Shown: positions 1-6,134, counted from the first letter of the stretch. The stretch: DNA of 41,546 nt from Bacteroidales bacterium (GCA_030611105.1 JAUWQL010000014.1:1-41546), one strand, 5' to 3'. Made by a program: numbers and translations. Notes: generated from the sequence alone by a model not told the origin.

Positions 1-1824
1 TCTACAGATTATAGTGTTTTAAGTAATATTACACAAGTAAATAATATTAAATTCAGCGAAACAGGCGATAGAGAATTACCAAACCTTGATCTGACAGTTC
101 TTGGAGATTTCACCATAGACGGCGATGATGCAACTCTCAAAGTTATTAACGAATTTGACAAAAAAACAGAAGTTCGTGGCAATCTTGTATTTAATGCCGG
201 AACTTTTGACGCGGGAACAGGCGCAGGTGCAATTGTAGAATTTAACGGAACAAGTGCTGCTCAAACAATATCGGGAACAGGTAGTTTTACTGCAGGAAAT
301 GCGTTTAATCATGTAATTATGAATAATACTAACGGTCTTACATTATCGAGCCCTGTTGAAATTGACGGAAATCTTACTTTTACTTCTGGTATTATTACAA
401 CAAGTTCTGCAAATATATTAACAGTGGATAATTCTGCAGAAACAACGGCTGTTACTGGCTATAGTAGTTCAAATTATGTGGACGGGCCAATGAGAAAACT
501 TATCAATAGTAATGATGATTTTGTTTTTCCGGTAGGAGATGCATCAAGGTATGGCCGGGTTGAAGTAATTAATACAGCTACAACAGGAGTACAATATTGG
601 GAAGCACAATATTATAATTTAAATCCTCATAGTTTTCCTATGGATACTAGTTCACGAGAAGCAGGGCTTGAAATGGTAAGTGGAAATGAATATTGGCGAA
701 TTGAAAATGTAAATCCGGATTCATCTCGTGTAAAAATCAGATGGGATGATCAAAGTTTGTTGCCGGCTATGACCAGCGACAGGGCAGCTAATATGAAAAT
801 GGTTGAGTGGTCAGGTGCTTTATGGGAAATAGTTGATGGAACTGTTACAGATGGAGGAGTAAATAGTGGAACAATTCTTTCTGACTGGAGGGTTAATCTT
901 GATGAGCATTATTTTACCCTTGGTACTACAGAATCGGCACCATTGCCAACAGCAACCTTTACTAACAATGACACATCAATTTGTGCTGGACAATCAGTGA
1001 CGCTTAGCATTGATCTGACTGGTGATCCTAACTGGAATGTTACCATTGAAGAAGGTGGCGATAGTCATACTTTTGCTCCACAGGCTACAAGTCCGCTTAC
1101 TTTTTCTGTTGATAGTGCAGGAACATATACAATAACCGCTGTTTCAGATAATAATGGAGCAGGCGTTCCTTTTGGTCCCGATGTTACTGTAACAGTTGTT
1201 CCTGTACCAACTGCATATAATGTTACAGGTGGAGGATCATACTGTGCTGGAGATGGAGGAATGTCTGTAGGATTGAGTTATTCTGATGTTGGTGTTAATT
1301 ATGAATTGTTTGCAGGAGTAACTTCTGTTGGTATTTGGGCTGGAATAGATGCAGTACTTGATTTTGGAAATCAAACGAATACAGGGACGGTAACTTATAG
1401 TGTAGTTGCAACTGATGCCTCTGGAACCTGTTCCGAAAATATGGCTTCAACAGTTGATGTTACCGAAAATCCATTACCAACAGCAACAATTACAGTTAGT
1501 GCAGCATTGGATACAATTTGTGATGGAAGTAATACACAAATTGATATTGATTTTACAACAGCTTCAATATCTTGGGATCTTGTTATTGACGATGGAACAA
1601 ACCCTACGGAAACTATTAATGGGGTAGGAGATCCTTATGCATATATTCCTGTGGTAGCACCTATTTGGGTTGATGATGGAACACCTGATACGGATTATGT
1701 ATATACAATACAAATTACTGATAGTAATACTTGTGTAAATACTCTTAGTAGCCCGACGGTTACGGTTTTTAAAGTCCCAGATACAGGACCTCAGTACCAT
1801 ATAGAAGATGGCTGGAGTAATTAA
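1..1824 (+). CDS. Giant secreted adhesin with Ig/PKD-like repeats, 5'-truncated by the window
   Basis: The frame is open from base 1 without a start, so only the last 607 residues are present. Residues 1 to about 160 are Gly/Thr/Asn-rich beta-strand repeats of the kind seen in beta-helix adhesins. A spacer of about 150 residues follows, then three Ig/PKD-like modules, each opening with a P-L/V-P-T-A linker and a paired-Cys motif (S-I-C-A-G, S-Y-C-A-G, T-I-C-D-G). I see neither a type-A nor a type-B T9SS sorting domain at the C-terminus; the protein ends TGPQYHIEDGWSN. The next gene ends with a closely related tail, and a type-B sorting-domain protein and a PorP/SprF protein follow. I infer a surface-exposed, SprB-like filament or adhesin delivered with help from its neighbours. 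The ligand is unknown. No terminator is obvious directly after the stop. Confidence 0.8.
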   Translation, partial: STDYSVLSNITQVNNIKFSETGDRELPNLDLTVLGDFTIDGDDATLKVINEFDKKTEVRGNLVFNAGTFDAGTGAGAIVEFNGTSAAQTISGTGSFTAGNAFNHVIMNNTNGLTLSSPVEIDGNLTFTSGIITTSSANILTVDNSAETTAVTGYSSSNYVDGPMRKLINSNDDFVFPVGDASRYGRVEVINTATTGVQYWEAQYYNLNPHSFPMDTSSREAGLEMVSGNEYWRIENVNPDSSRVKIRWDDQSLLPAMTSDRAANMKMVEWSGALWEIVDGTVTDGGVNSGTILSDWRVNLDEHYFTLGTTESAPLPTATFTNNDTSICAGQSVTLSIDLTGDPNWNVTIEEGGDSHTFAPQATSPLTFSVDSAGTYTITAVSDNNGAGVPFGPDVTVTVVPVPTAYNVTGGGSYCAGDGGMSVGLSYSDVGVNYELFAGVTSVGIWAGIDAVLDFGNQTNTGTVTYSVVATDASGTCSENMASTVDVTENPLPTATITVSAALDTICDGSNTQIDIDFTTASISWDLVIDDGTNPTETINGVGDPYAYIPVVAPIWVDDGTPDTDYVYTIQITDSNTCVNTLSSPTVTVFKVPDTGPQYHIEDGWSN

Positions 1825-2295
1825 AAAATTGACTAATTATTACTTGCCTGCGGCAAGCAGGTTGATAATTGAATAATGAATAATGACGAATTACAAATTA
1901 CTATTTACTAATGAATAATAAACATTGAACAATAAATACTGTAAAGACGTAATGCATTGCGTCTCAAAAATAAAGAAGATTGTGTCTCGACACTGAAAAA
2001 AGACTGTTTATGTAAAAAAAGAACATTTGATAAAAGCTGTTTTGGCATTAATCATTAAAAATGATACTTTTACGGCTTAATTGAAGATTTTTATCAAACA
2101 TGAAAGGATAATTGAAACCAAAGAGCTGAAAGAACGTTAAATATTATAACACACTAATTTAACATATTGAAATAATTAAATATATACTCAAGGATTAGTA
2201 AACCTTTTATAAAATATTACGTATCAAGAAAATTAATCTCTTAAAAAACAAAAATTTATTAAATTTAATTAAATACTAACTTAAACTTTTAGATC
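1825..2295. other. Non-coding gap with two short palindromic repeats
   Basis: I find no gene in these 471 bases. The gap contains the CCTGC/GCAGG repeat at 1843-1861 and a near-perfect 18-bp palindrome, GACGTAATG/CATTGCGTC, at 1946-1963 (one mismatch between arms). The rest is AT-rich. I found no convincing TAnnTTTG promoter for the gene at 2296. Confidence 0.6.
1843..1861. repeat. GC-rich palindromic repeat (CCTGC/GCAGG type), non-coding copy
   Basis: CTTGCC-TGC-GGCAAG is a perfect inverted repeat nested with CCTGC...GCAGG, standing out in AT-rich DNA. It shares its CCTGC core with the two coding-region elements at 9584-9631 and 36066-36113, so it may be an intergenic member of the same family. 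Confidence 0.5.
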
Positions 2296-3234
2296 ATGAA
2301 AAAAACAAACATTTTTAAAATTGCTTTTACCTTGGTATTAGCATTCGTTATTACAGGAGCTTTTGCACAAAGTACTGACGTTCCTGGTTTAGCAACGGAT
2401 TATGCTACTACAGGTGCTGTTACGGTAATGGAAGGTACAACTGTTCCTTTATATGCTAACCCTGATGCGTACTATCATCCAACTTATGATCCTGATGGTG
2501 CAGGTACTTTAACTGCTGGTTTTACTTGGACTTGGACTGAGCAGGTTACAAGTGATATTACATTTGGTAATAATAACCCTCTTAATGAGGATAATTATAC
2601 TACAATATCCGGAATGTTAGTTGCTAATTCTCCATACAATATTAATGTGTTGGAAATAGCTCCTGCAGCAATGGGAGGTTGTGACGATGGTGTTGGTACA
2701 AATATTGCCGTAACTGTTGTGGCTCAGCCAACAGCGACTTTAGGTGGAACTACATCTTATAATTTATGTGAGGGTGATGCTGGCTTACCTGCTAATGTAA
2801 CTGCTACAATTTCTAGTGGATGGCAAAACTATCGTGTAGTTTGGACATTGGAAGTTAAAACACTTACTGGCGCTGGTGCTGATAAAGATTTTTATGATAG
2901 TGATAAAACTACTGTTATTATACCTCCTGTTTTAGCTGAGGAATATACAACTGCTGTCCCTTACACGCAGGCTGCTACTGGTGCGTATGATATTACTTCA
3001 GTTGCTGCTGGGACTTTTACTGTTATTGATAATAGTGCAACTGTATATACTTATACATTAACAAGTATTAATGATAATGCTTCTCGTTTTGGTGATTTTA
3101 TTGTACTTGATGGTGACGATACTGTAGCTGCTAACTTTACTTATTATGCTGTTCCTGAAACAGTAACTATTAGAGTTAATCCTACTCCAACAACAGGTCC
3201 AATTTATCATATTGTAAATACTTGGGCTAACTAA
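2296..3234 (+). CDS. Secreted Ig-like domain protein with TGPxYHI C-terminal tail
   Basis: The protein has 312 residues. Residues 1-24 form a signal peptide (basic MKKTN start, hydrophobic core, GAFA-Q cleavage), which supports the start. The mature part is two or three Ig/PKD-like beta domains rich in Thr, Ala and Asn; one opens A-Q-P-T-A-T like the linkers of the upstream adhesin. No catalytic motif or T9SS type-A/B domain is visible. The C-terminus TGPIYHIVNTWAN matches the adhesin tail at 8 of 13 positions (T, G, P, Y, H, I, W, N). A strong terminator follows at once. I infer an extracellular subunit that is exported by Sec and works with the adhesin and the type-B protein encoded next. 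I do not recognise a named family. Confidence 0.8.
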   Translation: MKKTNIFKIAFTLVLAFVITGAFAQSTDVPGLATDYATTGAVTVMEGTTVPLYANPDAYYHPTYDPDGAGTLTAGFTWTWTEQVTSDITFGNNNPLNEDNYTTISGMLVANSPYNINVLEIAPAAMGGCDDGVGTNIAVTVVAQPTATLGGTTSYNLCEGDAGLPANVTATISSGWQNYRVVWTLEVKTLTGAGADKDFYDSDKTTVIIPPVLAEEYTTAVPYTQAATGAYDITSVAAGTFTVIDNSATVYTYTLTSINDNASRFGDFIVLDGDDTVAANFTYYAVPETVTIRVNPTPTTGPIYHIVNTWAN

Positions 3235-3263
3235 TTTTGTTTAAAAATATTTAACTATATTTA

Positions 3264-3294
3264 AACTGGTTCAGGATTTTCCTGAACCGGTTTT
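3264..3294 (+). terminator. Rho-independent terminator after the 312-residue protein
   Basis: A 13-bp stem (AACTGGTTCAGGA / TCCTGAACCGGTT, one G-T pair) with a TTT loop is followed by TTTT. It separates the tail-bearing genes from the type-B protein gene, so the latter needs its own promoter or read-through. Confidence 0.8.
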
Positions 3295-3410: not shown

Positions 3411-4433
3411 ATGCAAAATAAAAAATTGAAAAATTATATTCAAATATTAATTTCAATCTTTTTCCTGGTTTTCGGATCGGGTTTTAATAGTTATGCTCAG
3501 GATTTACCCGTTGCTTGTGGCGATGGTACGGTTCGTTATGGCGTAATTGGTGATAATGGCAATTCCGTTTTCGATTGGGAAGTAACTGGTGGAACAATTG
3601 TAAATAATTATAATGACTCTGTTGATGTTCAGTGGAATTCAGTTGCCGGGGCTCATTTTATCCGGGTAACGGAAACAAATTTATATGGTTGTACCGGAGA
3701 ACAATACGAAGATACGGTGATTATTTCAACACCTTTTGTTGATTTGGGACTGGATGCTGATATCTGTAGTGGTGAGACTTATGAGTTTATTGCTTCGGCC
3801 TCGGATATATTTACTTATTTGTGGCAAGACGATAGTAATGAAGAAACATTAATAGCTTCAACAGATGGACAATACTGGGTTCGTGTAACCGATAATTATG
3901 GTTGTATCGCATCAGATACTGCTTTATTGATCGTTCATGATTTACCTGCTGTAGATTTAGGTCCTGATACTACTTATTGTGGTGATGAAGGCCTTGTATT
4001 TGATGTATCGGAATACGGAATTTATTATGATTGGTTCGATGGTGATATATCATCAACATACACTGTATATACTCAAACCATAGACCAGGAAATCTGGGTA
4101 AGTGTTACGGATAATTTCGGTTGTGTCGGATCGGATACGGTTATAGTTCGTTCCTGTGGAGATATAGAAATACCAAATGCATTTACACCTAATGATGATG
4201 GTATAAATGATACCTGGGAAATTGAACAATTATTTATTTTTAATGAAGTAACTGTCGATATATTTAACCGATGGGGTGAAAGAGTTTTCCAGTCTAGTGG
4301 ATATTCATCTGATCAGTTCTGGGATGGTACAAGCCAGAAAGGTAAAAAATTACCAATGGATGCTTATTATTATGTTATAGATTTACATAATGGAGAAGAA
4401 CCAATAGTTGGTACGGTAACAATAATAAGGTAG
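3411..4433 (+). CDS. Secreted Ig/PKD protein with T9SS type-B (gliding motility-associated, CHU_C) C-terminal domain
   Basis: The protein has 340 residues. Residues 1-29 are a signal peptide (cleavage near SYA-Q). Three beta-sandwich modules follow (about 33-110, 113-178, 180-250) with repeated V-D-L-G and D-N-Y/F-G-C motifs. Residues about 252-340 are the classic type-B sorting domain: IPNAFTPNDDGINDTW, then FNRWGERVFQS, W-D-G-T, AYYYVI and G-T-V-T-I-I-R at the terminus. Type-B proteins are exported by T9SS and held at the surface by a PorP/SprF partner, which is the next gene (42-base gap). It is the only protein of the cluster with a known sorting domain, so it may anchor the tail-bearing proteins upstream (inference). 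Confidence 0.9.
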   Translation: MQNKKLKNYIQILISIFFLVFGSGFNSYAQDLPVACGDGTVRYGVIGDNGNSVFDWEVTGGTIVNNYNDSVDVQWNSVAGAHFIRVTETNLYGCTGEQYEDTVIISTPFVDLGLDADICSGETYEFIASASDIFTYLWQDDSNEETLIASTDGQYWVRVTDNYGCIASDTALLIVHDLPAVDLGPDTTYCGDEGLVFDVSEYGIYYDWFDGDISSTYTVYTQTIDQEIWVSVTDNFGCVGSDTVIVRSCGDIEIPNAFTPNDDGINDTWEIEQLFIFNEVTVDIFNRWGERVFQSSGYSSDQFWDGTSQKGKKLPMDAYYYVIDLHNGEEPIVGTVTIIR

Positions 4434-4475
4434 AATTTTGGAAATCTCACATAGATTGATTTGTTTTACAGACTA

Positions 4476-5450
4476 ATGAAAAAAATATTAACTATACTGT
4501 TTATCATAATGTTGACTGTGTTTTCTGCAAAAAGTCAGGAACCCATTTTTAGTCAATATACGATGAACAAATTCCTTATTAACCCTGCTTACGCGGGAAG
4601 TGAGGGATATACTACTTTTAATCTTACTGCACGTCAACAATGGCTGGGTTTTGAAGATGCACCAATGATACAGGCTATAAGCGGGCAAACCAGAATCTTG
4701 AAAACTAGTCATATTTCAAAGTCAAGATCAGTTAAGAAAAGAACAAAAAGACGCCGTCCTAGCGGGAAGATAGGATTAGGAGCTTATTTATATAACGACA
4801 AAAACGGGCCAATTGGAAGAACAGGACTAGAATTATCATACGCATATCATTTATTTATTCAAGACGGGCAGTTATCTTTAGGTTTATCTTTATCGGCATA
4901 TCAGTTTAGAGTAAACACAAGTGAACTACACACTTTTGAGGGCTATGATCCATTAATAGACGAAGCACGCGAAAGCATGTTTATTCCTGATGGAAGTGTT
5001 GGAATATATTATACATATCAGCCATTTTATTTTGGGGTATCAGCAAAGAATTTATTCCAGGCTTCGGTAAAATTTGGAGGCGATAATAGTTTTACCGATT
5101 ATCAGCAAGTGAGAAATTATTACTTGATAACAGGTTATAGATATGATATGGATAATGATTTTGAAATTGAACCTTCCTTATTAATAAAAACAACTGAGGC
5201 ATTTAATTTACAGGCAGATGTATCTGTAAAAGGATATTATAAAAGAGATTACTGGTTAGGATTTTCTTATAGAACAGGTAATGCTATTGTTACTATGGTG
5301 GGTATAAAAATTGACAAGTTGTATGTTGGTTATGCTTTCGATTATTCTTTAAATGATATTCAAAGAATTAGTTATGGTTCGCATGAAATAATGATTGGAA
5401 TGAACTTTGGCGACAATACCAGACGTTACAGATGGCTTAACAGATTCTAA
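4476..5450 (+). CDS. PorP/SprF family type IX secretion membrane protein
   Basis: The protein has 324 residues from the ATG at 4476; an in-frame TTG 15 bases earlier is rejected because MKKILTILF starts a clean signal peptide ending near AKS-Q. The mature start, EPIFSQYTMNKFLINPAYAGS, is the family hallmark, followed by TARQQWLGFEDAP. A basic loop at about 80-97 (SVKKRTKRRRPSGK) may face the periplasm or vary between paralogues. The remainder alternates polar and aromatic residues as an outer-membrane beta-barrel does. PorP/SprF proteins are paired with type-B sorting proteins and are needed for their export or attachment; the gene just upstream is such a protein. It likely shares a transcript with that gene and ends at the terminator at 5479-5505. 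Confidence 0.9.
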   Translation: MKKILTILFIIMLTVFSAKSQEPIFSQYTMNKFLINPAYAGSEGYTTFNLTARQQWLGFEDAPMIQAISGQTRILKTSHISKSRSVKKRTKRRRPSGKIGLGAYLYNDKNGPIGRTGLELSYAYHLFIQDGQLSLGLSLSAYQFRVNTSELHTFEGYDPLIDEARESMFIPDGSVGIYYTYQPFYFGVSAKNLFQASVKFGGDNSFTDYQQVRNYYLITGYRYDMDNDFEIEPSLLIKTTEAFNLQADVSVKGYYKRDYWLGFSYRTGNAIVTMVGIKIDKLYVGYAFDYSLNDIQRISYGSHEIMIGMNFGDNTRRYRWLNRF

Positions 5451-5606: not shown

Positions 5607-6134
5607 ATGCAGAAAAAACAAACACCTGATGAATACCGCCGAAATCTACCACATATTCAGCTGCAGGGAGGTATGTTTTTTATAACTTTTCGTCTGTATG
5701 GTTCAATACCTGTAAGTGAGATAGAAAATATATCAAATATTTATAAAAACACAAATACAACTGATATTTTAGGCAAATCAGTTAAAAGGCTAAAACAAGA
5801 ACAACAGGAGGATTATTTTTTAGCTTTTGATGAATATTTAGATAATAATCTTAATGACCCTTATTATTTGTCAAAACCGGAAATAGCACAATTAGTTTCT
5901 GATTCTTTACATTTTAGGGATGGTAGAGATTATAAGTTGGTTTGTTTTTGCATTATGAGTAATCATGTTCATATGATAATTTATAATCTTCAAAAGCCAT
6001 TAGATAGGATTATGAAAGAACTGAAATCGTTTACTGGAAAGGGGGCTTTGAAGATATTAAAAAATATGGACAGCAAAGTACCTGCTTCGATTCTTAATAT
6101 TAGCGCAGCAGGTGCTACGAGTTCCTTTTGGTAA
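5607..6134 (+). CDS. REP-associated Y1 transposase, probably C-terminally truncated
   Basis: The protein has 175 residues and starts MQKKQTPDEYRRNLPHIQL. The fold of TnpA_REP/Y1 enzymes is visible: GGMFFITFRLYGSIP near the start and the metal-binding HUH motif as H120-V-H122 in IMSNHVHMIIY, followed by the basic helix MKELKSFTGKGALKIL. These enzymes nick and join single-stranded hairpin DNA. In the family, the part after SSFW continues through a Tyr-containing segment and a final helix; here translation stops directly after SSFW (residues 172-175), so the segment expected to hold the catalytic Tyr is missing. The last codons contain a degenerate copy of the flanking repeat (6103-6120), and a perfect copy lies 11 bases after the stop. 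I think it is a decayed or inactive enzyme. Confidence 0.8.
   Translation: MQKKQTPDEYRRNLPHIQLQGGMFFITFRLYGSIPVSEIENISNIYKNTNTTDILGKSVKRLKQEQQEDYFLAFDEYLDNNLNDPYYLSKPEIAQLVSDSLHFRDGRDYKLVCFCIMSNHVHMIIYNLQKPLDRIMKELKSFTGKGALKILKNMDSKVPASILNISAAGATSSFW
6103..6120. repeat. Degenerate REP copy inside the transposase 3' end
   Basis: The bases GCGCAGCAGGTGCTACGA match the reverse complement of the flanking REP core (ACGCAGCAGGCGCTGCGT) at 14 of 18 positions. It encodes S-A-A-G-A-T, directly before the SSFW at the truncated terminus. Confidence 0.5.

Follow-up and report, generated by a model that had tools for sequence, protein, structure and literature searches.

How does a bacterium with the type IX secretion system (T9SS) display on its surface very large proteins that carry no known secretion signal? 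This question is raised by the first four genes of a 41,546-nucleotide stretch of DNA from a Bacteroidales bacterium (GCA_030611105.1, JAUWQL010000014.1:1-41546; hereafter, the window). In order, and all on the plus strand, they encode an adhesin cut by the window start, a 312-residue protein (the middle subunit), a type-B C-terminal domain (CTD) protein, and a PorP/SprF outer-membrane protein. The T9SS is known to export type-B CTD proteins, which require a cognate PorP/SprF protein and remain attached to it at the surface (PMC9143113, PMC12618676). The adhesin and the middle subunit end in similar short tails, and we propose, with a probability of roughly 0.74, that this tail is a donated beta strand, and that adhesin, middle subunit, type-B anchor, and PorP/SprF form a chain by C-terminal strand donation. 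What was computed is the conservation and position of the tail, the gene order, the homology of the N-terminal domains, the co-variation of the tails, and the formation of a strand in a model when the N-terminal domain is given.

Two neighbouring proteins with one tail

The adhesin gene (positions 1-1824) lacks its 5' end, cut by the window and contig start, and the remaining C-terminal 607 residues carry immunoglobulin (Ig)-like repeats; full-length equivalents in the genus measure 2,563-4,062 residues. Its tail, TGPQYHIEDGWSN (1783-1821), abuts the stop codon at 1822-1824. The middle subunit (2296-3234) comprises a signal peptide, an N-terminal Ig/PKD-like domain (2413-2727), a C-terminal Ig-like domain, and the tail TGPIYHIVNTWAN (3193-3231), directly followed by the stop codon at 3232-3234. 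These two putative donor strands are identical at 8 of 13 positions, while the chance of at least eight identities between two unrelated 13-mers is about 2e-7. When the 3.77-Mb genome was searched in six frames with the pattern TGPxYHI, exactly these two sites were returned.

Neither of the two proteins matches the type-A (PF18962, TIGR04183) or type-B (PF13585, TIGR04131) CTD models in Pfam and NCBIfam scans, and three full-length adhesins are likewise without a match to either. More generally, these scans found no C-terminal domain in the tail proteins, the models searched not including the one named type-C CTD (cl41395). The 340-residue protein encoded next (3411-4433), the proposed anchor or adaptor, does carry a type-B CTD at its C-terminus (4164-4430; PF13585, 7.4e-25 and 87.3 bits; TIGR04131, 7.5e-20 and 70.9 bits; cut-offs of 27 and 35). 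It is adjoined by the PorP/SprF gene (4461-5450; PF11751, 3.9e-76; TIGR03519, 5.5e-80 and 268.9 bits), whose product is the likely cognate holder of this CTD. A sequence-only reading of the window had described two otherwise different neighbours sharing a tail that ends exactly at the stop codon, both without type-A or type-B domain and beside type-B and PorP/SprF genes; coordinates, the 8 of 13 identities, and domain content were all borne out. Elsewhere, the genome holds a full SprA translocon gene, which counts in favour of the strand-donation chain, together with 36 type-A CTD matches, eight type-B CTDs over the cut-off, and six PorP/SprF genes.

Position and conservation of the tail

Among 98 relatives, the tail pattern occurs in 16 genomes, and always at a C-terminus, save for one chance match (L003) and one degraded copy. 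In one relative (L013, position 1905; G018), a second in-frame TGPIYHIPNNFNY end, with a stop just upstream and no open body, represents a decayed duplicate of the middle subunit. In a GTDB contig collection, 36 stretches match the pattern. A tail gene followed by a type-B gene is found in 27 of them; five others are cut at most 0.8 kb past the tail, L055 is the same contig as L015, and three are chance matches. A cultivated relative, Perlabentimonas gracilis (L048), also possesses the locus.

The GTDB set was selected by the tail itself. This bias was removed by using a profile of the 312-residue family, from which all tails had been cut off, against 393 genomes of the order. All 32 strong matches (E < 1e-12) to this body-only profile end in the tail or in a clear variant of it; a type-B gene lies within 3 kb in 28, and a PorP gene as well in 25. 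The four loci without a type-B gene at this distance consist of three at a contig edge and one second copy (L126), in a genome that also has a complete locus. In this family, with its mean column identity of 21-26%, the tail residues P, T, G, P, Y, H, and N count among the positions that show little or no variation (the sequences being partly tail-selected). The sequence-only reading had called for enrichment of the pattern at C-termini and for a link with type-B/PorP loci, and both were found.

The signal that it had spelled out, TGPxYHIxxxWxN, holds less generally: the tail is real, but this form belongs to one lineage, and the final W and N are dispensable. The general tail is approximately P-x-T-x-x-I-x-H, placed zero to ten residues before the stop. 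With the pattern P-x(4-6)-[IVLM]-x-H at most ten residues from the stop, 95 of the 721 distinct open reading frames of the collected loci are matched, compared with 3.5 expected from the interior rate; this set is enriched by selection, and 17 of the 95 matches lie in loci found by the N-terminal domain alone.

An N-terminal domain as companion of the tail

In the type-B proteins of the tail loci, the signal peptide is directly followed by a shared domain some 76 residues long (the N-domain; in the window, 3504-3728), the consensus of which is LPxACxGSxxxYGVxG...W.V.GG.I...DSI.V.W....G...I.V.E....GC.G. In Pfam and NCBIfam, no model reaches its cut-off on this domain or on the tail. The hidden Markov model (HMM) of the N-domain matches tandem PKD repeats at E-values of 1e-8 to 1e-14, and a PKD_6 match was obtained in one relative (L118). 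Minimal anchors of 193-198 residues (L115, L116, L188, L190) consist of the N-domain and the CTD alone.

Type-B loci that lack the N-domain served as controls. In the same genome, those read around type-B proteins of 1,203, 1,348, and 1,650 residues contain no tail genes, and the same holds for short type-B loci from other orders (G457, G449, G461). These controls show, at the level of sequence association, that the tail goes with the N-domain rather than with type-B/PorP genes as such.

The N-terminal domain of the middle subunit is homologous to that of the type-B protein (hhalign probability 92.8, E-value 3.9e-7); the HMM of the type-B N-domain also matches the middle subunit directly in several relatives. 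The full-length adhesins of the genus do not begin with such a domain. The sequence-only reading had both tails captured by the type-B anchor or its Ig domains. The idea of a docking tag, the type-B/PorP link, and the involvement of Ig domains are supported, with the receptor now narrowed to the N-terminal Ig/PKD-like domain; for the order of docking, a chain is likelier. Since the middle subunit has a homologous N-domain of its own, it is most likely the receptor for the adhesin and itself docks on the type-B protein. If all tails docked straight on the anchor, the adhesin and the middle subunit would sit side by side or compete for its N-domain, which is indeed the common denominator of these loci, but the N-domain of the middle subunits would be left without a partner.

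Reciprocal search, locus layouts, and co-variation

A search starting from the N-domain gave matches in 138 of the 393 genomes of the order, and twenty of the loci found in this way were read, most of them from families absent from the earlier sets. In a phylum-wide search, matches outside the order were mostly repeats inside giant proteins, so that this search gave no evidence of the split system beyond it. Complete loci have a common order: the adhesin comes first, then a middle subunit and a type-B protein that each carry the N-domain, and often PorP. In them, a short tail closes both the adhesin and the middle subunit, and its letters vary by locus: KPITSNIFHF and PKPSTSPIFHF in L175, SPNTSLIWHY and LPNTSLIWHN in L185, KPTQTTILHD and PLQKLQIYHE in L190, and GDIQSSNSLTRR and GDIASSSSLTRR in L171. 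This last locus (G387, reverse strand, 1-1456) was also noted for the wholly different tail that its neighbours share, GDIxSSxSLTRR, upstream of an N-domain type-B gene and PorP.

Within loci, the tails resemble each other more than between loci (likeness of 0.487 versus 0.271, standard deviation 0.021, 0 of 5000 permutations, n = 29, with tail pairs taken by hand from the collected loci), and this holds with one locus per broad lineage (0.520 versus 0.250, n = 13). N-domains co-vary as well (0.150 within versus 0.113 between loci, 0 of 5000). Alike tails are what a single shared receptor would lead one to expect, which favours direct docking of all tails on the anchor. On the other hand, complete loci have as many tails as N-domains (two of each in L173, L175, L177, L182, L188, L190, L115, and L116), and in multi-subunit loci the tail letters track the operon position, for example with T[SQ]PI[QKR]HI directly before the type-B gene and TGxIYHLPN one gene earlier. 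In L113, five consecutive tail proteins, all with different tails, precede the anchor. Direct docking is thus considered unlikely, and a chain in operon order is preferred.

The layouts also bear on a second alternative, in which the tail would serve export, as one more kind of T9SS signal recognised by the translocon or a cognate PorP/SprF shuttle, and would not join subunits. The tail does stand at the extreme C-terminus of CTD-less proteins bound for the surface, beside a PorP/SprF gene, and type-A, type-B, and type-C CTDs likewise have a C-terminal position on surface proteins of T9SS bacteria (PMC10202324). Yet each of those CTDs folds into a domain that measures about 70-100 residues or more, compared with some 13 residues for the tail, which would pair with a partner domain and not with a shuttle. 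Its letters vary by locus and operon position, type-B/PorP loci without the N-domain have no tails, and ten loci with tails and an N-domain type-B protein have no adjacent PorP gene (L105, L107, L112, L115, L116, L173, L181, L182, L188, L190). Together with the model presented below, in which the tail is a strand when the N-domain is present, this makes an export signal quite unlikely, and strand donation remains the preferred explanation.

One locus of another layout (L156/L157, G016, same genus) has three adhesins with tails (3,024, 544, and 3,185 residues; all TGPQYH[IL]) ahead of one middle subunit, a type-B gene, and PorP. These adhesins may be rivals for a single receptor or take turns at the tip.

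Structure modelling

In L029, the middle-subunit and type-B genes lie in one frame, 18 bases apart, and reading the stops as glycine yields a natural fusion. The modelled 440-residue chain runs from the 326-residue subunit through a stretch of seven residues and the type-B signal peptide to the N-domain (366-440); the alignment given to AlphaFold2 held 71 sequences, 15 of them natural read-throughs. The fusion was predicted with a mean predicted local distance difference test score (pLDDT) of 77.8, reaching 94 over residues 311-320, and YHI (318-320) forms a strand. When the 326-residue subunit was modelled alone, with an alignment without the N-domain, no strand was formed from residue 310 on, and the pLDDT was 63 beyond residue 320.

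Fold comparison gives a similar picture. With VIA-align 2, residues 827-933 of 2yhg align to residues 309-440 of the fusion (88 residues, 2.4 Å, Z 9.0), and Sas6 (7uww, 7uwu, 7uwv) aligns to residues 310-439 (75-78 residues, 2.2-2.5 Å). Single Ig domains thus span the tail and the N-domain, at least 13 residues of the 2yhg match preceding the N-domain. For the subunit alone, nearly all of the alignments listed stop at or before residue 313, which places the tail outside the subunit's own domains. Among the fold-comparison rows listed, no pilus subunit stood out, which excludes nothing.

These results are relevant to a third explanation, that the tail pairs with nothing and is conserved merely as the end of the last Ig-like domain. 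It does follow directly on the last strand of an Ig-like domain (V-x-V-x-P-x-P). However, no other stretch of the family, whose mean column identity is as low as given above, is as well conserved; the tail is also common to otherwise different proteins of one locus and lies outside the subunit's own domains. We regard this explanation as very improbable. Tandem PKD arrays of other Bacteroidota speak for a strand donated to the N-domain. There, the unit reads ...VTVN-PNPTPSISG-PNSVCANQTGVVYST..., and the N-domain profile begins just after PxPTPxISG, which is the first strand. The tail, ...VTVYPAPVTGPIYHI, occupies the place of this strand A, following on the final strand of the domain before it; the receiver begins with LPxACxG. 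The arrangement would therefore resemble a tandem array cut between strands A and B and rejoined non-covalently, as judged from position and model, not from residue similarity.

Several observations weigh against strand donation. The tail (311-320) already has a pLDDT of 88 in the subunit alone, without the N-domain. For Ig folds, Z-scores of 8-9 are no more than moderate. The structural test used a single-chain fusion, judged by alignment ranges, pLDDT, secondary structure, and the contrast with the control. Scored against the array profile, the real tail joined to the N-domain does no better than shuffled tails (24.5 versus 24.7 bits), so that the strand-A step rests on position and model. 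Common ancestry could produce the co-variation of the N-domains. Finally, the tail genes of L126, L184, L185, and L117 have no type-B gene next to them; the final tail in such loci (e.g., SLIWHN) would have to pair with a protein encoded elsewhere, perhaps a large one starting with an N-domain, as in L119 and L120.

Proposed assembly and relation to known systems

In the proposed mechanism, each surface protein other than the anchor would end in a short strand (TGPxYHI) that enters the N-domain of the protein encoded next downstream. The receiving domain starts straight after the signal peptide, apparently without a strand A of its own. The adhesin tail would thus enter the N-domain of the 312-residue protein, and the tail of the latter that of the 340-residue type-B protein, whose CTD would be held by PorP/SprF in the outer membrane, the outcome being a non-covalent fibre. 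The CTD-less subunits presumably cross the outer membrane via the T9SS, with or after the type-B protein. Actual binding and chain order are what we infer here from sequence and modelling.

A wider version of this mechanism, which is put forward tentatively and judged somewhat less probable than not, concerns export in trans. Adhesins of up to 4,000 residues without T9SS signal would be captured by their C-terminal strand, directly or via the middle subunit, and would exit with the small type-B adaptor. One CTD and one PorP/SprF protein could then serve a whole heteropolymeric fibre, and the tail/N-domain pairs would constitute an evolvable code for subunit order in many Bacteroidales families.

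The anchor half of the locus, a gene for a type-B CTD protein followed by a PorP/SprF gene, is the same as in SprB-SprF of Flavobacterium johnsoniae and PG1035-PorP of Porphyromonas gingivalis (PMC9143113, PMC12618676). In the cases described, the adhesin itself bears the CTD, whereas here the CTD belongs to a small protein, and the adhesin and middle subunit carry a tail instead. The proposed mechanism would resemble that of chaperone-usher pili and of the FimA/Mfa fimbriae of Bacteroidales (for which a donor-strand mechanism has been proposed; PMC4789730), in that a neighbour's strand completes an Ig-like fold to give a linear fibre. In the present loci, however, the donor would be a C-terminal tail after a complete domain, the receptor the PKD-like first domain of the next gene product, and the end piece a type-B CTD protein. 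No chaperone or usher genes were found near the loci read (with Pfam in the window and by inspection elsewhere). The tail proteins have no fimbrillin match in Pfam, and by inspection they have ordinary signal peptides ending in AQ, with no lipoprotein signal or gingipain processing seen. By analogy, the system would work like donor-strand assembly, and membership of any pilus family is not claimed.

Giant proteins with tandem PKD-like or Ig-like domains, such as GhpA of Aureispira (PDB 9flw/9fls), offer another comparison. The N-domain is related to their repeat unit, and GhpA fragments were among the best fold matches, but in such giants the domains are consecutive in one chain, whereas here the chain appears to be cut at the first strand of a domain and rejoined without a covalent bond. 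The parts (type-B anchors, PKD domains, strand donation) are known; as far as found, what is new is the proposed use of a C-terminal strand to link surface proteins that lack a CTD, in operon order, to a type-B adaptor. The family databases do not contain this combination, and no such tail was found described in the open-access literature on the T9SS, type-B CTDs, donor strands, multi-subunit adhesins, piggyback export, and CTD-less substrates, a scope outside which most subscription journals and all preprints fall.

If true, this mechanism would explain the surface display of proteins without a known secretion signal in T9SS bacteria. It would also give small type-B proteins a role; that of PG1035, the sole type-B protein of P. 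gingivalis, has been guessed to be a PorP cap (PMC9143113). In practice, the rule of a P-x-T-x-x-I-x-H tail combined with an N-terminal docking domain would find multi-protein surface fibres in Bacteroidales, and would provide a short tag together with its putative partner domain, some 80 residues long.

Other features of the locus

Between the middle-subunit and type-B genes lies a 14-bp stem-loop followed by TTTT (3263-3293, plus strand; -20.3 kcal/mol, z -6.4), which resembles an intra-locus terminator or attenuator. As a guess, it could be an attenuator setting subunit ratios, with expression of the anchor below that of the middle subunit. Scans of the window locus for promoter-like sequences stayed at chance level. 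Directly downstream of PorP/SprF, a probable fragment of a REP-associated tyrosine transposase is found at 5607-6134 (NF047646, 30.9 bits against a cut-off of 80).

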